Virus record (IMG/VR): IMGVR_UViG_3300010883_008773
Location: 1-20,312 of that record
From: a virus
DNA length: 20,312 bases
Reading direction: 5' to 3' (one strand)
The notes below the pieces were generated by a model. That model was not told the origin of the DNA. It saw only the letters and a list, made by a program, of their open reading frames with translations, and searched no databases. A program made the translations under genes and the position numbers. Below, piece by piece: positions 1,595 to 13,369 of the stretch (position 1 is its first letter; each line of letters opens with the position of its first letter).

Positions 1595-4500
1595 TTATGT
1601 ATGAACATCTCTATCCTCCCATATACCAACACTATTCCTAGTGTACCAGTTTCCATTTATAAGCTCTTTTCTTGTATCACTCCCTCTGTAAAAATTTGTA
1701 AATCCCAGAAGTGAATAGTTTGCAGTCATATCCCCATCGTATGATTCTGCATCCTCAGGGGTAGATTTTTGTATATCCCAGACATTAGTTGTCCCACAAT
1801 CTATAGTGGTATTTTTCCAAGACAATCCAGACACATTTATCGTATTTATATTATTAGTGGTAGGCATTTCCCCCTCGGCTACAGCGTTAACTCCATTCAC
1901 CTTATACCTAAAACCTTCTGCATTATCACTGGGATAATAGACAGTGGGAGTGACAGAATAAGTGTTTGGATCAAGATCGGATATGGCTGTAGCATTACTA
2001 AAATAAAATGAATCACCTACTTGAACCTTGCTATCTAGCTTAATTTGTCGTATATTTGCTGCCTCTCCAACAGCATTATCATGCCTCAATGTTAATCTTT
2101 TAGAAGTTTTTAACTCCATATCAGAGTCCACACCAGCATAAATATATTCATCAGTCCCATCAGAATTCCATGATATCTTTTTTCCACTCGCGTGATATGT
2201 ATGAGTTGTGGGTGACAAGTTTATGCCTCCTGCCGATCCAAGGGCATATGAACTCTGACCTGTATTAGAAGTGCTGACTGTCATTATGCCCGCGTCTATA
2301 TCCACTTCAGAAGCAGTATGAGCATTACAATCAATATGCAATGCGCGACCTGCTGTATGGGCGGATACTAGTTTTATTTCACCATCTGCTGTTGTTGTTG
2401 TAAGGCTTATATCGTACTTGGCGCTAATACCGACATTGTCTTCTGAACCCATGTTTATGTCCCCAGTTCCAGACAGAATAGTAACAGAAGTCTCAGCTTC
2501 AGAATTTCCAATACCAACAGTAACTTCCTTGGCGCCATACCCCATATAAATAGCTCTTTCACCATCTGTCCCAATATTAATATCCTGGTCAATATCATCT
2601 ACACCTATTCCAATGGTTCCTGCTGATGAGTCTATAGTTATCGCTCCCACGGCATCTACATTGAATACAGTTCCAGCATATAGTGTCATACCACCCGATA
2701 TCGCTTCAAATTTCATAGCAAGATCAGAAGTACCACCAACATTACCGATATAAATTTTCTCCGTTGCAGCACTACCAGGAGTAAAGGCCATATACGTCGA
2801 ACTCGAATTACCAAGAGCCAATCTTCTCCCATCTATTAGCGATGGTGCAATCTTCATTGAACCAGCAGTTACATCTAGCTTCATTGCAGGAGAGCCATCT
2901 CCTTCTCCAGCAGAAACTATTCGCAGTTCTTGTGCGCCTCCTCCAGCAACCGCAATGTCTAAATCTTTTGCACTACCTGTTACTGTCAAGTTTGAATCAA
3001 GAGTGCCATCGATGGAAACGCTGGTCCCATCCATTGTTATTGATCCACCATCAAAATCGAGTGCCAAAGCATTAATATCAACCATTGTTGATGCAGCATT
3101 ACCAACTGTAATCGTCTTTGCTACAGCCTCAACACCAAGACTGATATTATCTGTCCCATCTGTATCAATTATTAAAACTCCCCCTGAATCAATGGTCATA
3201 GTACCAGCGGAAGTAACAGTCATTATATTACCAGCAAGAGCAGTTGTAGTATTATCAGCAGAACCTAATGTTAAATTACCAGTTCCATGCGGATCAATAC
3301 TAACATTACCATTAGTACCTGTGGTCATTGTAAGACCGCCTGAACCAGTAGTTACATTTACAGCTGTTGCCCCTTCGGCATTACCAATATTAATAGTGTC
3401 TGGAAATGCCCCTGTTCCTATAGATATAGTTCTTTCTCCTTGTGTACCTATATTAATTGCTTGGTCAACATCATCAATGCCTATCCCAATAGTTCCAGCA
3501 CTATCAATGGTTATCGACCCACTTGCATCTATATCCAATATACCTGCGTCTAGGTTCACTAGAGAACTAGCGTCAGCATTACAATCAATCCACAGTGCAG
3601 AACCTGCTGTTGTGTGGGCTGATTTTATCTTAATATCTCCATCTTCTCCTGATGTTTCCAGGTCTATACTACCAGTAGTGCTTGTAAAGATCATGTTGTC
3701 ACCAGCATCAATCGTGAGTCCCAAAGCGGCATCAATATTCATACCGCCAGCGCTAGCGTTAAACACCATCGCATTTACACTTGTACCCTGGGAAACGAAA
3801 TTCAGTGTCTGGTCCGCACCTCCTCCAAGAGCTTTAATTTGCAAATCTTGATCTTCGCCTGTGACTACAAATTTTGAAGTAAGAGTACCATTTATATCTA
3901 CTGTAGGGCCAGTTATATTTATAGTTCCATCAGAGTTTAAATCTAATGTGGTTGCCGTTCCAGATATTTTAGTATTATCATCTACCCAGGTAATGAGTTT
4001 ACCTGTAGCCATGTCAATATCGCCTGCGATATCTATATCACCAGATATCTGCAATTCAGGCGTAGTCATATCTACTATGGTTGAGGCAGTAATATTAGTA
4101 GTTGGATAAGTAATAGTCGCTGTAGTACCACTCATGGTTAGGGTTGTTGCATCTACATCAAAGGTAGCTGTAGTTAATTCCACCTCTGTACCAGCATTAA
4201 TGTCTAACAATGCTGTATTCATTTCAGTTTCTGTAGTAGAATCCAGAGTTAATTTGTCCGCATAATTAATGGTTCCAGTGGTTCCATGCATAGTCAGCGT
4301 GGTTGCATCTACATCAAATGTCGCTGTGGTTAGCTCTACCTCTGTACCAGCATTAATGTCTAGCAAGGCCGTGTTCATCTCTGTTTCTGTGGTAGAATCC
4401 AGAGTTAATTTGTCCGCATAATTAATAGTTCCAGTTGTACCATCCATAGTTAAGGTAGTGGCATTAACATCTAAAGTTGCTGCACCTGTAGTGGCTACAA

Positions 4501-5821
4501 TCTGTGTTGTGGGTGCTGTTAATATAGTTGAGGTTGCACTATTTATCGTGGCATCGGTGACATCTACATCTAATGTGGGCGTGCTTATTTCAACTTCTGT
4601 TACCGCATCTATATTTAATGTTCCACTATGGTCAATTTTATTAGTAGTTATAACAGTATTACCTACTGTAAAGTCAGTATCTGCATCGTAGGTCGTGGCG
4701 CTGTGTGCGCCTGTACAGTCTACATCTCCAGCTAATGACAATGTAGCATCTGTAATAACTCCGCTTGTTATAACTGTAGTGCCTACCGTAAAGTCTGTAG
4801 TAGCATCTATTGTTGTACCTTTAATAGTTGTGTGGCTTGAAAGTCCAATAGTAGTCCCATCAATAGCTCCTGCATTACAATCAACAGTTGCAATAGTAGT
4901 CGTTCCAGTAGCAAAATCTTGAGCTGAACTCCAAGTTAAACCACCTGATATAGTTGAAGCAGATATATCTCCACCATCAATGTTTACATTGGTAAGGGCT
5001 TGACTGTTCATATCTTGAGCTGAACTCCAGGTCAATCCTCCAGATATTGTGGCCGCACTTATATCACCAGAATCTATATTAACGTTTGTTAACGCTTGAC
5101 TATTCATATCTTGAGCTGAAGACCAAGTTAAGCCACCAGAAATTGTTGCAGCTGAAATATCACCAGAATCTATATCAACCTTAGTCATATTTTGGTCATT
5201 AAAATCAATGGCACCAGTAGCTTGAAATGCACCTATTTTGGTAGCCGTTAATGTCTGTCCACTAAATGTTAAATCAGCATCGTCAGCTAACAGTCCTGCT
5301 GTCCCTGCAAATGTAACTCGTCCTGAAGTTAAGTCAGAAGCTGTGAATGCTTTAGCAGTAAGTTTATAGTTTCCTATATCAACATGATCTGCTACAGTTA
5401 AACTTGTTATGCCATCAACTGTACCACCATCTATATCAGGGGTATTAAGGTCAGCAGTTGTTATTGTTGGAGAGGTATCCATAACTACCGTAGAGCCAGT
5501 ACCTGTAGTACCACTCACATCTGAAAGCTGGCTTAATATACTAATATGACCACCACTATCACCTGTCGCTCCACCACCATATCCTAGAACCATTACTCCT
5601 GAACTGGCGTTATCGCTAGAAACCTCACTGGTTTGTGCGGATATAGCATCTCCACCTACGCGAAACCAAGAACCAGCATCCTTAACATACATTGCAAGAC
5701 CGCCCTCAATTCTTGCCGCCCACATACTTCCATCTGAACCCTCATTATTACCTGGAGGTCCATTTGTAAATTGTAGTAATTTAGCATCCCTAAAGGCGTG
5801 TCTTCTGGTATCTTGTTTCAT
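1595..5821 (-). CDS. Large repetitive tail fibre / beta-structured structural protein (1408 aa)
   Basis: This is a very long Asp/Thr/Ser/Gly/Ile-rich protein of short strand-turn units (patterns such as LTMDGTTGTI and ITIDSAGTIGIG), typical of trimeric beta-helical phage fibres. The N-terminal ~60 residues, with aromatic WAAR and SWFRVGG patches, probably dock to the tail. Residues ~90-130 carry a GTTGTGSTVVMDTSPTITT segment common in phage fibres. Three 32-residue repeats lie at ~207-302, and 52-residue repeats lie at 457-560 with a partial third. Further similar blocks 292 residues apart fill the middle. The last ~150 residues are less repetitive and may hold a tip or trimerisation domain. 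The ATG at 5821 shares one base with the stop of the upstream gene (TAATG) and has no good SD, so translational coupling is likely. Host-receptor contact is inferred. Confidence 0.85.
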   Translation of the reverse strand: MKQDTRRHAFRDAKLLQFTNGPPGNNEGSDGSMWAARIEGGLAMYVKDAGSWFRVGGDAISAQTSEVSSDNASSGVMVLGYGGGATGDSGGHISILSQLSDVSGTTGTGSTVVMDTSPTITTADLNTPDIDGGTVDGITSLTVADHVDIGNYKLTAKAFTASDLTSGRVTFAGTAGLLADDADLTFSGQTLTATKIGAFQATGAIDFNDQNMTKVDIDSGDISAATISGGLTWSSAQDMNSQALTNVNIDSGDISAATISGGLTWSSAQDMNSQALTNVNIDGGDISASTISGGLTWSSAQDFATGTTTIATVDCNAGAIDGTTIGLSSHTTIKGTTIDATTDFTVGTTVITSGVITDATLSLAGDVDCTGAHSATTYDADTDFTVGNTVITTNKIDHSGTLNIDAVTEVEISTPTLDVDVTDATINSATSTILTAPTTQIVATTGAATLDVNATTLTMDGTTGTINYADKLTLDSTTETEMNTALLDINAGTEVELTTATFDVDATTLTMHGTTGTINYADKLTLDSTTETEMNTALLDINAGTEVELTTATFDVDATTLTMSGTTATITYPTTNITASTIVDMTTPELQISGDIDIAGDIDMATGKLITWVDDNTKISGTATTLDLNSDGTINITGPTVDINGTLTSKFVVTGEDQDLQIKALGGGADQTLNFVSQGTSVNAMVFNASAGGMNIDAALGLTIDAGDNMIFTSTTGSIDLETSGEDGDIKIKSAHTTAGSALWIDCNADASSLVNLDAGILDIDASGSITIDSAGTIGIGIDDVDQAINIGTQGERTISIGTGAFPDTINIGNAEGATAVNVTTGSGGLTMTTGTNGNVSIDPHGTGNLTLGSADNTTTALAGNIMTVTSAGTMTIDSGGVLIIDTDGTDNISLGVEAVAKTITVGNAASTMVDINALALDFDGGSITMDGTSVSIDGTLDSNLTVTGSAKDLDIAVAGGGAQELRIVSAGEGDGSPAMKLDVTAGSMKIAPSLIDGRRLALGNSSSTYMAFTPGSAATEKIYIGNVGGTSDLAMKFEAISGGMTLYAGTVFNVDAVGAITIDSSAGTIGIGVDDIDQDINIGTDGERAIYMGYGAKEVTVGIGNSEAETSVTILSGTGDINMGSEDNVGISAKYDISLTTTTADGEIKLVSAHTAGRALHIDCNAHTASEVDIDAGIMTVSTSNTGQSSYALGSAGGINLSPTTHTYHASGKKISWNSDGTDEYIYAGVDSDMELKTSKRLTLRHDNAVGEAANIRQIKLDSKVQVGDSFYFSNATAISDLDPNTYSVTPTVYYPSDNAEGFRYKVNGVNAVAEGEMPTTNNINTINVSGLSWKNTTIDCGTTNVWDIQKSTPEDAESYDGDMTANYSLLGFTNFYRGSDTRKELINGNWYTRNSVGIWEDRDVHT
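4142..4453 (-). repeat. Two tandem 156-bp (52-aa) repeats in the fibre gene
   Basis: Copies occupy 4453-4298 and 4297-4142 (residues 457-508 and 509-560). The two 52-residue units differ at one amino acid (LTMD versus LTMH), while roughly one base in ten differs, nearly always at synonymous sites. A partial third copy (LTMSGTTATI) begins at 4141 and soon diverges. The phase is exact at 156 bp. Confidence 0.95.
4916..5203 (-). repeat. Three tandem 96-bp (32-aa) repeats in the fibre gene
   Basis: The segment encoding SSAQDMNSQALT/NVNIDSGDISAATISGGLTW recurs with an exact 96-bp period; the shared plus-strand marker 'atcttgagctga' begins at 4916, 5012 and 5108. Protein copies are almost identical and the DNA differs mainly at silent positions. 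Each unit probably forms one layer of the fibre shaft. Confidence 0.93.
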
Positions 5822-7026
5822 TATGTATTCTTTAGATGTTTCATTCTATAAACAACATCAATTCCATAGATTTCAAGGCCAACCTGTGTAGCGCCTGTAG
5901 ACCTAAATATTAGCATACAGGTATATATATCTATCATCGGAAGGCTTGTTGTCAGGCTTACTGTTGTTCTTGAGGAGCTAGTTGTAAGCGCGCCTATTTC
6001 TGTTTTAGTATCTCCACCATCAGTAGATAGATAAACTGTAATATTTTCTCCTTTTTTAAAATCGACTCTAACCTCATATACTGTTGTTCTTCTAGCAGAA
6101 TCCCCAAAATCATAGTTCTTTGTAATAAGCTCAAAGTCACCTGTAGCGTATGTCACATCGGTCGCACTCCAGGTATATAAAAAGGCCGAGGATGTATCTA
6201 CCGTTGCTTGACTTAAATATGCCATTTTTTTATCTCCAGCAATGACTGCATTTGTTACCCTTCCAGGGACAACAAGAGAGTTATTATGATAGCTCCACGC
6301 CCCTGTTGCCAGATCACAAACAAACCCTGCCCCATTCCCAGAATCACCGTGCTTATCTACAACTACTAATTTTTTCACACCAGGAACATAATATAGTGCC
6401 ATATTACCTGAAATGCCAAGTTCTGATAGGGCGGAGGCCCAGGTTGGGACATTAACTTCCGCAGGGGTGCTTATATATGTGTCTATTCTTATCTTTCTGA
6501 AATTATCTTTCTCTGTTAATACTACTATTGAGTCCCCATTATATAAATAACAACCATGTGTATTGGCCCAGGCTATTCCATATTCAGTTTTCACAACTGC
6601 GCATGGATGGCCCACTCCCATGTTTGACCTGGTATCTTCTAAATACTCAGTACCCTGTGCCGTATTAATAATATATAGCGTGTTTGTTTTAAACTGTAAG
6701 ACTCTATCAGCATAAGATGCCAGGGCTATAATTTCTTCCCCATCATCCGTAGACACATCTATCAATCTATTTTCAGCAAATGTATCATAACTACCAACGA
6801 CAGACTTATACATTGTGTCTGGATATGTTACGGTGCTACCATCCTGTTTTACTGCAACCACATTACCTATATATGCAACCTTGTTTATAACTGTGGACGC
6901 TTTCCATCTAACCGCTTTAAGCGCTTGCCCGCTTGAAATAACCCTTCCATTTTGGTATGGAGGTTTTGAATATCCAAACTTTTTGCCCACTGGTGCGGGT
7001 GCTACATAGGCATAACTGGTAGCCAT
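5821..7026 (-). CDS. C-terminal half of nozzle / tail beta-propeller protein (401 aa)
   Basis: The sequence resembles the C-terminal half of phage nozzle (stabilising tail) proteins. Near residue 45 it has AVRWKAS...VAYIGNV, then TMYKSVVGSYDTF, LIDVSTDDGEEIIALASYADRVLQFK, LYIIN...EYLEDT and a GIAWANTHGCYLYNGD block. These are successive blade-like strands known from podovirus tail proteins. The C-terminal ~120 residues form a beta domain. In relatives as I recall them, these motifs sit inside one longer protein whose N-terminal half corresponds to the gene directly upstream (9671-7026). Here a separate ATG at 7026 shares one base with that gene's TAA, and the SD (AAGGAG) lies inside its last codons, so the halves are translated as a coupled pair. 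Location in the virion tail is inferred from family resemblance and order. Confidence 0.75.
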   Translation of the reverse strand: MATSYAYVAPAPVGKKFGYSKPPYQNGRVISSGQALKAVRWKASTVINKVAYIGNVVAVKQDGSTVTYPDTMYKSVVGSYDTFAENRLIDVSTDDGEEIIALASYADRVLQFKTNTLYIINTAQGTEYLEDTRSNMGVGHPCAVVKTEYGIAWANTHGCYLYNGDSIVVLTEKDNFRKIRIDTYISTPAEVNVPTWASALSELGISGNMALYYVPGVKKLVVVDKHGDSGNGAGFVCDLATGAWSYHNNSLVVPGRVTNAVIAGDKKMAYLSQATVDTSSAFLYTWSATDVTYATGDFELITKNYDFGDSARRTTVYEVRVDFKKGENITVYLSTDGGDTKTEIGALTTSSSRTTVSLTTSLPMIDIYTCMLIFRSTGATQVGLEIYGIDVVYRMKHLKNT

Positions 7027-7754
7027 TAATTAATCTCCTTGTAAAAGTACGGAAGTTTATCTAACCCTTTATATCTCCACTTTGCGCACATAAATTCCAT
7101 CTTGTTGCGCCATAGATCCCCATAAATATTAGTACATGATGGGTCGTTGTCAATTAAATTATCTATATCGTAATTTTTTGGATGGGATCTGTCGTAATAA
7201 AAATAGCAGTCAACCTTATCTTCACGATGGTCATATACCTCTTTGCCTGTATAATCCTTCATATAAAGAAATTGTGGACATATATGAGGGTTTACAAGCC
7301 TGCCATCCTTTTCTTGAACATAATACAGGGTTTTGAGTATATCTTCGTATATTTCTAAATCTATGTCTTCTTTTAGAGGAGTTATCTGTATATCATAATA
7401 ATGCGTTACTATTTCGTTCCTTGCGTTACTACCTATAAGGTAATAGTTAAACAATCCAGGGTATTTTATCTTCAGCTCTTTTACAACTTTAGTTGCCCTA
7501 ACATGTCCAGTAGCTTTATTATAATACTGTGATATTTCTTGTCTTGCCAAATAATCCCATATTGGCTTAATAAATGGCTTTATCCAGCCTGCCTTGCGAA
7601 CACGCTCCGCCCATTTTATGCCATATTTTTTATATACCCTTGTAAACAGGTTGTTTGTGTTCATAACATAATGTCTGGCCTTATATGTTTGTTTATTGGA
7701 TAATCCATAAAGCTCTATCGCCACAGGGCAACAGTTCCCACCTGGATTATTCCA
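7026..7754 (-). other. Accessory C-terminal module: CFI-box-like segment plus nucleotidyltransferase-like domain
   Basis: This region, residues ~640-881 of the 881-aa tail protein, sits at the junction between the two nozzle halves. Its first part (C647 C648 P V A I E L Y G, then R667 and LFTRVYKKYGIKWA) follows the spacing of the CFI box, C-x6-YG...R...F-x-x-x-Y-Y, with Pro in place of Phe. The second part fits hG[GS]-x(9-13)-Dh[DE]h of Pol-beta-type nucleotidyltransferases with 11 spacer residues, but the second carboxylate is Gln762. D821 in a hydrophobic strand would be the third metal ligand. Activity is uncertain because of the Gln. Confidence 0.5.
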
Positions 7755-9671
7755 ACCTTCAGGACCACCAGGCGGCTCCGTATAGTCTGAAGGTCCCACT
7801 GTATAATCCACCTTTGTAGATTCAGAAACCATTAAAAGACTCTCATCAAGAAGTTGCCAGTAAACCTGCGCAACGCCCTCTGATGTATTATATGCATCTA
7901 TTGAAACACCAACATAAGCAGGATAGGTGAGAGCCGTGTATTCTTTATAAACTGGGCCATTGTGTACTCCATATAATGCCGCGTAATAAACCCTTGCATC
8001 CCTGGCCTCTGTTGGATAATGATTGTCTATATGGGTTAAGGGGAATGTTGCTGTTTTATATGCCTCTGCCGCGGTTAATATGGGCAAAGTTCCCATTGAT
8101 ATGCTCCCTTTAAATATGCCTCTATGATCATCAGTAAATGTAACTAAAACATCACTGTTGGTGGCAGTAGCAATCTTATTCAAAGTCACAGTGTGGAGGG
8201 AAGTTCTGTCAATACTTACGATTCTTGTTGAACTTTGTAAACCAGTACCTGAAACATACATTCCAACCCTTAAATCGTCTGGAGGGGTAATGGCAGAACC
8301 ACCAGAACCATCTTGTATACCAAGTGCTGAAGAGGCAGCAATAGTGGTACAATAATATGTAAATTTATTCCTATATACCTCCCAATAATTCAATTTTGCT
8401 GTTGCTGCGTCTATTTCCTCTAAAATAAACCAGTCTGAATCAAATTGTTCTTGAAAATACAATACCAACCCCTCCACTCTATGATCACCAAAAAGCGAAT
8501 CGGCATTTGTCATATCTCCTAAGAGGTTAACGCTAACATCACCGCAAACAAATAACTGGAACGAAAGACTTCCCTTGGTTAGAGCAAGCCTAAATTGAGT
8601 AGCATTCGTATTGGTGACCTCTTTTATACTTCCAGTTCCTCCACCCTTATACCTTAATGCACAGCCAAACTTAAATGTACCACTCCAACCACCCATGGCG
8701 CTATCAGCAGAACCAGTTTTAGCTAAATATCCAAAAATAATAGTGTTATCTTTTAAAGAAGTACTTGTCTGGGGGTTAAGGCCGTCTAGATCGTGCGCCC
8801 ATACATTTAATGTGTCTATTGCGGATGTTGAGTCCTGGATTCCGCCAGCAAACTTACTAATTTCCATTGCACTGTGTTGGTCTACCTTCCCTGGTACTGG
8901 ATTAAATAAATCTTGTGCTATAAAGCCAAACCAATATGATTTATTATTAGTTTTAGAAAAGTCTATATCAGACACTCTTAATATTGACTCTGTATAATAG
9001 CTATCAAAACCCTTGCCTGTTGTGTCATTGGCAGCTAAATCAGCTTTAGGGACTCTAATCCATGTAGCCGCTGAATCTGGCTTTATCCATAGTGATTGCT
9101 GTTCAGATGGACAAATAGAATACCCCTCACCTCCACCAACTCCTTTAGGATAAGATATCTCTGTAATTGTTTTAAAAGTACTTGTGGCGCTGGTTTCCAT
9201 AAAACCAGACGCACCAGCGTAGTGGAGTTCAATATTAGCAGCTATTGCCCAGGACGTATCTGCAACTCTATAATTATATAAGATTACAGTAGTGCTGTCT
9301 GGAACCGACTGAACTTCTCCAACATTTGCAGTTGAGCCTAGAAAATTCGCTCTATCACCAACTATATTACCCACTGCAAGACCATGAGCGCCACTTGTTT
9401 TCAATTGTACTAAGTTCCACTTCCAATCACTTACAATATATTTAAGTCCGCCTTGTTTGGGAAGGTTTACACTCTCTAATCCATTAAATCCATCAAGCTC
9501 TGTGTCATTGTGTTTTATTGTGTCCCCATTACCCTCCTGAGAAATGGTACCAATACTTGAAAAACTACACCCAATTGCAGACGCGCATTCTTTTTCCTGT
9601 AGATTGTCAGCATTGCTTGCATTATTTAAACCTCCGTAGAATTCTGATATCTGTAGTGTTCTTTTGGCCAC
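7026..9671 (-). CDS. N-terminal half of nozzle / tail protein with extra CFI-box-like and nucleotidyltransferase-like C-terminus (881 aa)
   Basis: The start codon is GTG at 9671-9669. The N-terminus (FYGGLNNASNADNLQEKE..., residues 11-30) is the classic opening of podovirus nozzle/tail-tube proteins, and LRVSDIDF with YWFGFI (near 230-250) and DSDWFILEEIDA (~410) support this. Residues ~86-155 hold an AHGL-type domain. Residues ~440-512 hold a VGMYVSGTGL-type beta module frequent in phage tail proteins. From about residue 640 the protein changes character. A Pro/Gly linker leads to C648-x6-YG...LFTRVYKKYGIKWA, which resembles a CFI-box domain. Residues ~730-881, rich in Tyr/Lys/Asp, carry G747-S748-x-A-R-x-E, D760-I-Q-I and D821 in KVDCYFYY, the layout of a nucleotidyltransferase fold. 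The gene ends exactly where the second nozzle half starts. Confidence 0.75.
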   Translation of the reverse strand: MAKRTLQISEFYGGLNNASNADNLQEKECASAIGCSFSSIGTISQEGNGDTIKHNDTELDGFNGLESVNLPKQGGLKYIVSDWKWNLVQLKTSGAHGLAVGNIVGDRANFLGSTANVGEVQSVPDSTTVILYNYRVADTSWAIAANIELHYAGASGFMETSATSTFKTITEISYPKGVGGGEGYSICPSEQQSLWIKPDSAATWIRVPKADLAANDTTGKGFDSYYTESILRVSDIDFSKTNNKSYWFGFIAQDLFNPVPGKVDQHSAMEISKFAGGIQDSTSAIDTLNVWAHDLDGLNPQTSTSLKDNTIIFGYLAKTGSADSAMGGWSGTFKFGCALRYKGGGTGSIKEVTNTNATQFRLALTKGSLSFQLFVCGDVSVNLLGDMTNADSLFGDHRVEGLVLYFQEQFDSDWFILEEIDAATAKLNYWEVYRNKFTYYCTTIAASSALGIQDGSGGSAITPPDDLRVGMYVSGTGLQSSTRIVSIDRTSLHTVTLNKIATATNSDVLVTFTDDHRGIFKGSISMGTLPILTAAEAYKTATFPLTHIDNHYPTEARDARVYYAALYGVHNGPVYKEYTALTYPAYVGVSIDAYNTSEGVAQVYWQLLDESLLMVSESTKVDYTVGPSDYTEPPGGPEGWNNPGGNCCPVAIELYGLSNKQTYKARHYVMNTNNLFTRVYKKYGIKWAERVRKAGWIKPFIKPIWDYLARQEISQYYNKATGHVRATKVVKELKIKYPGLFNYYLIGSNARNEIVTHYYDIQITPLKEDIDLEIYEDILKTLYYVQEKDGRLVNPHICPQFLYMKDYTGKEVYDHREDKVDCYFYYDRSHPKNYDIDNLIDNDPSCTNIYGDLWRNKMEFMCAKWRYKGLDKLPYFYKEIN

Positions 9672-9673
9672 CC

Positions 9674-12600
9674 TTATGCTTCCCCGCCACCAACAGGGGT
9701 ATATTGCGACATAAAGGCTTTTAGCGCCTCATTGTACTGGGACTTTAGATCCTGCAAAGATTCAAGTTTAGACTTATGGTCCTGTAATACATTTTGGCTT
9801 TCCACCTGGTATGATGATATTTCACCTTGATATTTCTGCAATTTCATACTATCTTCTGACTGAATATTCTGTATATCTGCCTGGTATTTAACTATAAGCT
9901 CACCATTAAATTTTGTAGCCTCATCCAATTCGCTTGTATGTTTTTGAACCAGAATCTGATAGTCTTGAACAGCAATGCCAAGTTGAGCTTGAAAGGACTG
10001 TATGTCTGCCTGGTATTTACTAATTTTACCCTGGTATTCTGATACATCCTTATTAAAATCACTTACTTCATTTTGTATATCTTGAGCATATTGTTGTACT
10101 AATCTGTTTTCACTTGATTCCCATGTAGCTATTTCCTTTTGAAGTTCGTTAATTGTATACTCTTGAACCTCCAGAGCTATCCTGGCCTTATACCTCTCCA
10201 GGTCCCCAGTATACTTTGCAATCTTTGACTGGTACTCGGTCACATCTAAATTATATATATTTAATTCATTTTGTATATCAGAAGAATATACCTGGATCTT
10301 GGTAGTATTATATTGATTCCAGGCCGTAAGCTGTTTCTGTAACTCATTTATAGTATACTCTTGCACGGATGCGCCTATATCGGCTTGATATAGTGCCGTA
10401 TCGTTTGCAAATCTTTGAAGTGTCAGAGTATAGTCGGAAACACCTGCTTCCAGGGTTTTAGCCTCATTTTGGAGGCTTAATACTTGAGCTTGAGCTTTAT
10501 TTGACACATCCACATTGGTAGCCAGATCTGCCTCCTTTGTCAATCTTGCTATTTCAAGCTCCGCATCTTTTAATGATTTTTGCAATGCCGTCTGCATTTT
10601 TTGTATTTCCGCCTGCATTCCTGCCTGGAACACTCCATTACCCTTGTTGTATTCATTTAACTCGTTTTGAATATCCTGTCCATACTGTTGTATTTTTGAA
10701 GCGTTATAGTCACGCCACGCTGATAATTCTCTCGTTATTTCATTTATGGTATACTCTTGAACAGATGTAGCTATGTTCGCCTGGTAGGCCTGTACATCCT
10801 GTTGATATAATTGTATGTCGGCATTCCAGTCGGCCACTTGTGCCTCAAATATTTTAGCTTTGTTTTGAAGGTCTAATGCTTGATCCTGCGCCTTATTAGT
10901 AATGTCTACCTGTGTTCCTAGATCTCCATCTTTCATCTTCTCCTGCAATTCTACATCTGCCTGTTTCTGAGCCATCGATATATCTTTTTGCAGATTCGCC
11001 TGGCCAACAGTAATGGCTGACTTCATTTCCGCTAACTCTGCCTGAAAGTCCGTCTGATATATAGCGTTCTCTTTATTATATTTATTAAGCTCATTCTGAA
11101 TATCTTTTCCATAAGCATCTAATGAATCCAGGTTTCTTTTATTCCAAGCCATAAGCTGGTTGTCTATTTCATTTACCTTATACTCTTGAACGGCTGAATT
11201 TACCTGGTTATTATAACTTGCAATTTCAGCTTGATACCTCTGTATAGACGCTGAATATTCAGCCACATCCTGTTCAAAGTCTTTCACCGCGTTACCAATA
11301 GCAAGAGCCTGGTCCTGTTGCTTATTAAACATAGCCAGGGCCTGGTCTTGGGCCTTATTCCTTAAACTAACCTCTGTCACTGCTTTAGCATTCTGCATAG
11401 CAGTCTGTAGGTCTAAATCAGCCTGTTTAAGCATCTCACTTGAATCTATCTGCGCTTGGGTAATCATTTTTTTGGATTTAGCTTCAATGTCTGTTGACTG
11501 TGACTGCATTCCTGCCTTATAAACCGACAGGCTTTGATTAAAGATATTTAATTCATTCTGTATGTCTGCCTGGTATTCACCTAGAGATCCCTGGAACTGC
11601 TGTATTATAGACTGTGCAAGCTCAACATCCTCATCACCAATTGCCGTTGTTATAGTGCCTTGAACATCATTGTCTAATACTGGTGGAGTATAAGATGGTG
11701 CGCCTGGCAGACTGCCAAAGGTTGCATCACCTACGGTTGTGGCACTATTTACTGTAGGCGCTACCAGTTCCGTGGCCCCTGCGTCATTGTTTGTGGCATC
11801 AGAGTTTGATGCTGGCGTATATGTCAAGGCTGGGGCGGGAGGGGCGGTTGGTACTGTTATAGTAGATAAATCCAAATCATCAATATCTGGGACATTATTA
11901 AGCGTCAGTGCTGGCTGTGTATATGTTGGAGCGGTTACAAAGGCTATGTCTGTAGCAGACCCCATATCTGATACAGGCGGTATTGTTATAGTAGATATAT
12001 CATCTGCTGATGCATCTGAATTTGTTGCGACAGTATATGTTATAGTAGGTATACCAGGAGCCACAGGAGCGGTTATAGTAGACAGGTCTATATCATCAAT
12101 AACTGGTATAACATCAAGCATTAAAATAGGTTTTACATATAATGGGGACTCTGGTATCGTTATGTTGGCAATATCTGTAGTTGATGTCATGCCTATAGAT
12201 GATGCCGATCCATCCCCACCTGTTGCATCTTCATATGCTATGCTTGGGTCGGGTGGTGGTACTGGCGCGGATATTCCAGACAGGTCTAAATCATCAATAG
12301 ATGGGATAGAATCAATAGAAACAGACGGCTTTGTATATGTAAAAGCTGGAGCGGAAGGTTCTGCTGGCGGAGCTATTAAAGAGAGATCTAAATCTGATAT
12401 AGATGGAATACCTGAAAGCGATATGCCTGGCTTTGTATAGCTGAAACTTGGACCCGAAGGTGAAGAGGGGGCCGATGGTCCAGTGTAGGCAAAACTAGAC
12501 ACTGCGTTTGCCAAAGTCTGGTCTAGCGTTGGAGTTGCTGGGGCCGTTCCAAGCACTGGTGCTAACGGACTTGAAGGGATCCCTGTTATTGTTCCATGTA

Positions 12601-13369
12601 AAAAACTATATAGACATTTTATAGATGCGCCCAGAACAACTGTATGCGTCAGCTCTTCAGGAAACCCATTGGCTAGTTTTACAACAGTACCACCATCCAA
12701 GTCTTCTGATATGCTATTTGCTACTATTCCCTCTAAAGTAAATGTTGTAGAATTAGGGGTTGCCAATACCTGTGTGGTCATGCCGTTAATTAAATCATAT
12801 GGATCATCATCAGACACTTCAAGGAAACCAGATAGTTGTACAGTATCACCTACAGTTAACCCATGCGCCCCAGTGGTTGTAAACACCGCGTCATCTGCTT
12901 CACAGGTCACTGATGTAATTGTTGCGCCAGCAGATCTAATCAGACTATCGGTATACAGCACTACAGGGTATCCTACTTCTGTTACCTTAAATTCTCCTGT
13001 GGTTGCTACTGGCTCTGGATATACATATATTTTACCTGATTTTTTAAGGAAGACAGGGTTGTCTTCTGAAGCATAAAACATGCTATTTACATTGGAAAGA
13101 CCGCCCACATAAGCAGGACTAATCTCTTTACAATTAATATAGTATCCATCCACACCGCCCTCGCGCTGAACCTGAAGAACTTTACAGGTATTAGTTTGAG
13201 TATATCCATTTGCTGACTGCACTGCACTCTCCTGTGATACAAGCCATAGACACTCATAAGGTAAGATATTAATAACATCCTTGACCGCATCAGTCATTGA
13301 ATCGGTCATTAGCTGGGTATCACTTACACTACCGACCAGGTCTTCTATTCGCGCTTGAAAGGTTGCCAT
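9674..13369 (-). CDS. Adaptor-headed, Pro-rich, long coiled-coil tail protein (1231 aa)
   Basis: Residues 1-145 and ~233-260 look like a head-tail adaptor-type domain (MATFQARIEDLVG...AVKDVINILP; FPEELTHTVVLGASIKCL), interrupted at ~149-233 by an AHGL-type beta domain. Residues ~260-575 are Pro/Ala/Ser-rich, with four copies of an IPSIxDLDLS...AP motif. Residues ~575-1225 form a Gln/Ala/Glu/Tyr-rich coiled coil with five DIQNELN-type markers at 601, 755, 898, 1030 and 1096. No membrane segment or enzyme motif is seen. The stop lies two bases before the next gene's GTG, and the start follows TAGGAGAG, where the SD overlaps the upstream stop. The protein is likely a virion component anchored at the portal/adaptor ring, with the rod forming a fibre, needle or tail extension. 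The name rests on the N-terminus; the coil's function is unknown. Confidence 0.7.
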   Translation of the reverse strand: MATFQARIEDLVGSVSDTQLMTDSMTDAVKDVINILPYECLWLVSQESAVQSANGYTQTNTCKVLQVQREGGVDGYYINCKEISPAYVGGLSNVNSMFYASEDNPVFLKKSGKIYVYPEPVATTGEFKVTEVGYPVVLYTDSLIRSAGATITSVTCEADDAVFTTTGAHGLTVGDTVQLSGFLEVSDDDPYDLINGMTTQVLATPNSTTFTLEGIVANSISEDLDGGTVVKLANGFPEELTHTVVLGASIKCLYSFLHGTITGIPSSPLAPVLGTAPATPTLDQTLANAVSSFAYTGPSAPSSPSGPSFSYTKPGISLSGIPSISDLDLSLIAPPAEPSAPAFTYTKPSVSIDSIPSIDDLDLSGISAPVPPPDPSIAYEDATGGDGSASSIGMTSTTDIANITIPESPLYVKPILMLDVIPVIDDIDLSTITAPVAPGIPTITYTVATNSDASADDISTITIPPVSDMGSATDIAFVTAPTYTQPALTLNNVPDIDDLDLSTITVPTAPPAPALTYTPASNSDATNNDAGATELVAPTVNSATTVGDATFGSLPGAPSYTPPVLDNDVQGTITTAIGDEDVELAQSIIQQFQGSLGEYQADIQNELNIFNQSLSVYKAGMQSQSTDIEAKSKKMITQAQIDSSEMLKQADLDLQTAMQNAKAVTEVSLRNKAQDQALAMFNKQQDQALAIGNAVKDFEQDVAEYSASIQRYQAEIASYNNQVNSAVQEYKVNEIDNQLMAWNKRNLDSLDAYGKDIQNELNKYNKENAIYQTDFQAELAEMKSAITVGQANLQKDISMAQKQADVELQEKMKDGDLGTQVDITNKAQDQALDLQNKAKIFEAQVADWNADIQLYQQDVQAYQANIATSVQEYTINEITRELSAWRDYNASKIQQYGQDIQNELNEYNKGNGVFQAGMQAEIQKMQTALQKSLKDAELEIARLTKEADLATNVDVSNKAQAQVLSLQNEAKTLEAGVSDYTLTLQRFANDTALYQADIGASVQEYTINELQKQLTAWNQYNTTKIQVYSSDIQNELNIYNLDVTEYQSKIAKYTGDLERYKARIALEVQEYTINELQKEIATWESSENRLVQQYAQDIQNEVSDFNKDVSEYQGKISKYQADIQSFQAQLGIAVQDYQILVQKHTSELDEATKFNGELIVKYQADIQNIQSEDSMKLQKYQGEISSYQVESQNVLQDHKSKLESLQDLKSQYNEALKAFMSQYTPVGGGEA
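10085..11569 (-). repeat. Four coiled-coil repeat units of 154, 143, 132 and 66 residues (all multiples of 11)
   Basis: The marker DIQNELN, with its preceding residue, has first-codon positions 11569, 11107, 10678, 10282 and 10084 (last copy DIQNEVS). The spacings are 462, 429, 396 and 198 bp. Each unit also carries VQEY(T/K) exactly 28 residues before the next marker. Length differences all fall between the marker and VQEY and are 11, 11 and 66 residues. This preserves an 11-residue (hendecad) phase, as expected for a right-handed or weakly twisted coiled coil. Confidence 0.9.
11647..12592 (-). repeat. Pro-rich linker with repeated YTKP / IPSIxDLDLS motif
   Basis: Within the 1231-aa gene, residues ~260-575 hold four diverged copies of a block such as IPSIDDLDLSGISAP. 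The DLDLS/DIDLS segments repeat at intervals of 34, 66 and 72 residues; the first two copies are also matched by YTKP with Y codons at 12439 and 12337, exactly 102 bp apart. Between blocks are Asp/Ser/Ala-rich spacers. The region is probably an extended flexible stalk. Confidence 0.8.

Follow-up and report, generated by a model that had tools for sequence, protein, structure and literature searches.

Nozzle proteins gate DNA in short-tailed phages, and the nozzles of T7, SU10, crAss001 and P22 are single chains. In the virus record analysed here (20,312 bases, a fragment, hereafter the window), the initial annotation read two consecutive minus-strand genes as the front and back halves of one podovirus nozzle. 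This raises the question of whether the two genes are a split nozzle, what accompanied the split, and what occupies the break. Both open reading frames are present where that annotation placed them, and their parts are as follows.

9671-7026, minus strand: front nozzle chain with fused C-terminal domains, 881 aa, GTG start
8391..9671, minus strand: front core (residues 1-427), assigned to N-terminal platform strands, propeller blades 1-2 and the first nozzle-tip domain
7779..8390, minus strand: Ig-like beta module (residues 428-631), specific to split nozzles
7515..7778, minus strand: linker (residues 632-719) with Gly/Pro, a Cys-Cys pair (NCC at 646-648) and predicted helices
7029..7514, minus strand: nucleotidyltransferase (NTase) domain (residues 720-881), fused in frame to the front
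7386..7433, minus strand: GSNARNE...HYYD motif, with the first DxD carboxylate changed to Tyr758 and Asp760 kept
7278..7298, minus strand: LVNPHIC, with the third catalytic carboxylate changed to Asn794
7035..7040, minus strand: Shine-Dalgarno sequence AAGGAG of the back half, within the front gene's final codons
7024..7028, minus strand: TAATG, in which the front stop overlaps the back start
7026-5821, minus strand: back nozzle chain, 401 aa, ATG start, assigned to blades 3-7 and the C-terminal platform through the model of a single-chain relative

The gene order of the window is portal-(scaffold)-major head protein-155 aa-299 aa-1231 aa-nozzle-1408 aa and is matched in relatives; the portal and head protein were identified by PHROG, and the 299-aa "adaptor" by position only. 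The nozzle genes thus lie between the head genes and the tail fibre genes of the structural operon, as expected of a podovirus nozzle. The 1231-aa protein (9674-13369, minus strand), between the putative adaptor and the nozzle, matches in its first ~145 residues a protein only ~218 aa long in many relatives, and its remainder consists of long coiled-coil-like repeats (VQEYTINELQKELTAW...). The 1408-aa protein that follows the nozzle (1595-5821, minus strand) has near-identical internal repeats (e.g. EVELTTATFDVDATTLTM..GTTGTINYADKLTLDSTTETEMNTALLDINAG) and matches relatives at the N-terminus only; it is probably a fibre.

Direct searches with the window proteins returned no usable relative, and a PDB sequence search gave nothing meaningful. 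One candidate, L002, was discarded as a chance match on the antisense strand of a tape-measure-like gene. A search with the major head protein led to 80 viral loci that share the gene order; 80 more came from an alignment of split backs, and further loci from NTase alignments. One locus near the window, L004, has a 77% identical head protein but stops short of the nozzle. Loci that extend far enough mostly show a single open reading frame of ~800-1080 aa between the fibre genes and the putative adaptor, and the 401-aa protein is matched by the second part of this frame. Profiles of split fronts and backs identified 91 single-chain open reading frames and 38 separate backs, and the front precedes the back in single chains wherever both were detected; after removal of near-identical rows, 60 single-chain and 17 split forms remained, so that split nozzles occur in at least 17 non-redundant viruses. 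Since the split-front and split-back profiles match the same single chains, the reading of the 881-aa and 401-aa proteins as front and back of one nozzle held up, as did the earlier statement that known relatives carry both parts in one chain: ~60 non-redundant relatives do so, front then back, without the insert. Neither the nozzle nor the NTase matched any named phage. A genome scan with the nozzle returned one contig, L179, which is binned as Marinimicrobia, carries the single-chain form and is probably viral. Neither a split nozzle nor an NTase associated with a nozzle turned up in the literature searched.

The fold was assessed on one single-chain relative, L084, of which 812 residues were modelled in a prediction from 51 sequences (pTM 0.81). 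The top Foldseek matches of this model were phage nozzles, and VIA-align placed it closest to Pa223 (Z 26.9, 452 aligned, 3.2 A), followed by the crAss001 muzzle (Z 25.1), SU10 gp17 (24.6), VP1 (24.1) and P22 gp10 (21.1). Unrelated WD40 propellers also score Z ~21 against it; the nozzle matches stand out because they cover the whole chain including the platform. The podovirus nozzle identity proposed from sequence is thereby borne out. The model contains a platform and a seven-bladed propeller, to which the window halves were assigned by sequence profiles. Its strands, in our own reading of the strand list, form two blades (~48-183), a tip region (~190-455) and five blades (~460-697). The tip of SU10 is formed by four Ig-like nozzle domains that sit as an insertion between blades 2 and 3 (PMC9509320), and the T7 tip domain branches off the propeller at blade 3 (PMC6702177). 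The L084 model has its tip-domain insertion between the same two blades as SU10. On this model, the break in the split viruses lies at the end of the tip region between blades 2 and 3, which agrees with the earlier suggestion of a break between propeller blades. Among single chains the tip region measures anywhere from ~220 to 960 residues, and this wide range indicates that the site tolerates additions. Seven single-chain nozzles have 1600-1840 aa (L066, L080, L100, L125, L127, L142 and L158), with an extra several hundred to ~1000 residues that apparently sit at the same place in the tip; Pfam found no domain in the four of these that were scanned (L066, L100, L127 and L158).

The model of the window's own 881-aa front is poor overall (mean pLDDT 55), and a BFVD search with it gave no clear whole-chain match; the window blades were therefore assigned through relatives. 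In the front core the parts follow the same order as in single-chain relatives, and positions 1-342 of profile A3 match both split and single-chain nozzles; its assignment to blades 1-2 is inferred from the L084 model. The initial annotation had ended the front at residue ~640 and described ~240 unrelated residues beyond it. That the front is followed by extra residues stands, and they form an additional C-terminal part of ~250 residues, but the front including its Ig-like module ends at ~631, and what follows consists of the Cys-containing helical linker and the NTase domain. The linker (~90 residues) has no match among the other loci; a likeness to CFI-box domains was dropped after no match was found in NCBIfam or in the loci.

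What distinguishes split from single-chain forms is the Ig-like module and not the NTase. Single chains follow the front profile to near position 342 and enter the back ~50-90 residues later, whereas split fronts carry an Ig-like module of ~115-205 residues after the front profile. The module model matches every split front, including members outside its training set (such as L126, L034 and L130) and the window (~5e-32), and it is absent from all single-chain nozzles (module HMM, E<=10). Region 487-613 of the model of the window front is similar to Ig-type domains of transglutaminases (Z ~5). The Ig-like module, rather than the NTase insert, accompanies the split. Beyond the module, the content of the gap differs among viruses: four (L067, L086, L088 and L097) have no cargo, only the module and a short tail; the fronts of L036 and L034 end in a Hint domain (PF14623; 28.3 bits in L036 against a cut-off of 27); and others have an NTase gene. 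The Hint-bearing fronts (L036 13191-14996 and L034 12823-14436), in which the domain begins CFLANTKI and is possibly self-cleaving, carry it at the same site as the NTase elsewhere. In L126 (1254-2751) the front appears broken into two overlapping open reading frames (160 + 353 aa), probably through a sequencing or assembly frameshift.

In 12 other viruses (L015, L033, L085, L096, L099, L126, L130, L131, L132, L145, L166 and L170), a free NTase gene of ~145-170 aa lies exactly in the gap, and the order front-NTase-back recurs in at least 11 non-redundant viruses. The window domain is ~32-35% identical to the free NTases of L015 and L033, and the L033 homolog matches PF01909 (NTP_transf_2; 21.9 bits against a cut-off of 21). 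The window domain was modelled with confidence (pLDDT mostly 80-94). Among solved structures it comes closest to AadA/ANT(9) nucleotidyltransferases (Z 5.3-6.2, with AadA at 6.2), a predicted fold match that is modest alone but agrees with the Pfam match of the homologs. The free copies resemble minimal nucleotidyltransferases (PF01909; AadA/ANT(9), MNT antitoxin) in their GSxxR...DxD...D pattern and in fold (Z ~6), and all 12 retain D-Y-D and the third D. The window copy retains the GSxxR motif as GSNAR and lacks two of the three catalytic carboxylates (Y758-Y-D760 and N794; D->Y and D->N), so that its catalysis is probably lost. In contrast to other PF01909 nucleotidyltransferases, members of this family are encoded between nozzle halves, and the one in the window forms part of a tail protein by fusion. 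Fusion to the front was seen only in the window among the loci compared, and it looks like a later event by comparison with the sequences elsewhere, since the NTase usually stands as an intact gene of its own. When the viral collection was scanned for the family, 16 loci came back, all 16 at the nozzle border (the stored sequence of L167 stops short of the back); a scan of genomes with the same family found none.

Translation of the back half had been proposed to rely on a coupled start, with TAATG and a Shine-Dalgarno sequence within the last codons of the front, and both elements are found in the window. The overlap extends to nearly all split loci: in 17 of 18 the ATG of the back and the stop of the gene upstream, be it the front or the NTase, share a TAATG, and in L036 the back start overlaps the upstream gene by 8 bases. 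TAATG overlaps are also common at other gene borders of these genomes (34/64 and 41/64), and the coupling is therefore neither a special device nor special evidence. The dN/dS values of front, NTase and back are 0.08-0.27 in diverged pairs and 0.06-0.19 in close pairs, pointing to purifying selection on all three in the pairs measured. These low values argue that the split is maintained and not decaying; together with the recurrence of the order, the range of 0.06-0.27 argues that the front-NTase-back layout did not arise by chance.

How the split arose can be approached from the distribution of these forms. Known nozzles are single chains, and this state is thus probably ancestral. In a tree of backs, split forms are scattered and four changes are needed, with weak deep forks; a single clade of all split forms is not rejected (p-AU 0.33). 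The Ig-like module common to the split forms favours one origin of the split. The NTase was then either gained once and lost, or gained twice. The initial annotation had supposed that an accessory insert broke a single-chain nozzle in the window virus and that the back was rescued by a new coupled start, and the ~250 extra residues, stop and restart exactly between the window halves fit this order of events. As a general account it is contradicted, however, by the split nozzles that have no insert (L067, L086, L088, L097) or a different one, the Hint domain of L036; the NTase is moreover a free gene in the 12 other viruses, and the p-AU result leaves room for all split forms as one clade. We consider an insert-first origin improbable. 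Poorer still are the prospects of a mature nozzle that is one chain, its halves joined by protein trans-splicing, frameshift or readthrough. The Hint domain (PF14623, Vint) that ends the L036 and L034 fronts at the break would suit such joining, but the backs lack a partner C-intein, the back of the Hint-bearing L036 starts like all others, with a conserved N-terminus that is the same in viruses without Hint, and no Hint domain was found in the window. Each back has its own ATG, and the Shine-Dalgarno sequence in the window is well placed; no Rfam group I/II intron matched in the window up to E=1. Intron, splicing and frameshift readings were accordingly rejected, and joined halves seem very improbable.

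We instead regard it as likely that the two genes are a split podovirus nozzle whose two products come together in a single propeller, with the tail tip as the place of the break and of any cargo, a break site that hosts tip modules, and, in the window, an NTase that is fused to the front and probably non-catalytic. The relatives in single-chain form share their overall fold with T7 gp12, SU10 gp17, Pa223, P22 gp10 and the crAss001 muzzle; unlike those single chains, the split nozzles are broken at the tip insertion into two genes, in the window by the stop and restart at 7028-7024. The front chain would supply the N-terminal platform strands, blades 1-2 and the tip domains, and end at the tail tip; the back chain, started by coupled restart at TAATG, would re-enter at the tip and supply blades 3-7 and the rest of the platform. 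Two outcomes at odds with a split nozzle were not seen: the 401-aa chain is not a complete fold of its own, since by homology it equals blades 3-7 plus the C-terminal platform, and the two genes are not ancestrally separate and non-adjacent, being adjacent or parted only by the NTase gene. Since all seven blades are present in neither half, the two most likely meet in one propeller, associating non-covalently, possibly in six copies per tail by analogy with known nozzles. A break within the tip-domain insertion, which we infer to lie at the tail tip, would create new ends there. Because this insertion tolerates large additions, these ends could serve as a site for modules: Ig-like in all split forms, followed by a Hint domain, a free NTase gene or nothing.

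The exclusive place of the NTase and its fusion in the window suggest a tail-tip component. It could also be ordinary moron-like cargo in an existing gene border, unrelated to the tail, with the window fusion as neutral readthrough, and we give this reading considerable weight while stopping short of calling it probable. The NTase is present in only part of the split group, is absent from the L086/L097 lineage, which is sister to an NTase lineage, and has lost catalytic residues in the fused window copy, all as expected of a passenger; a passenger would not be expected, however, to occur nowhere but the nozzle border in 16/16 loci, to be under purifying selection, or to keep its predicted fold once fused. 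More speculative is the broader proposal that the tail-tip break is a general docking port with exchangeable modules (Ig-like, Hint, NTase), that the NTase is a virion protein acting at the host envelope or delivered into the host, and that the window holds a covalent, catalytically dead form; this we offer tentatively, as somewhat unlikely in its full extent. A nozzle naturally made of two chains, found repeatedly and kept by selection, would demonstrate that two separate pieces suffice to assemble the propeller and that its chain can be opened at the tip insertion. Such a nozzle would offer a ready site for studying tail-tip modules, and it points to a tail-tied nucleotidyltransferase in uncultured viruses where these proteins lack named relatives.
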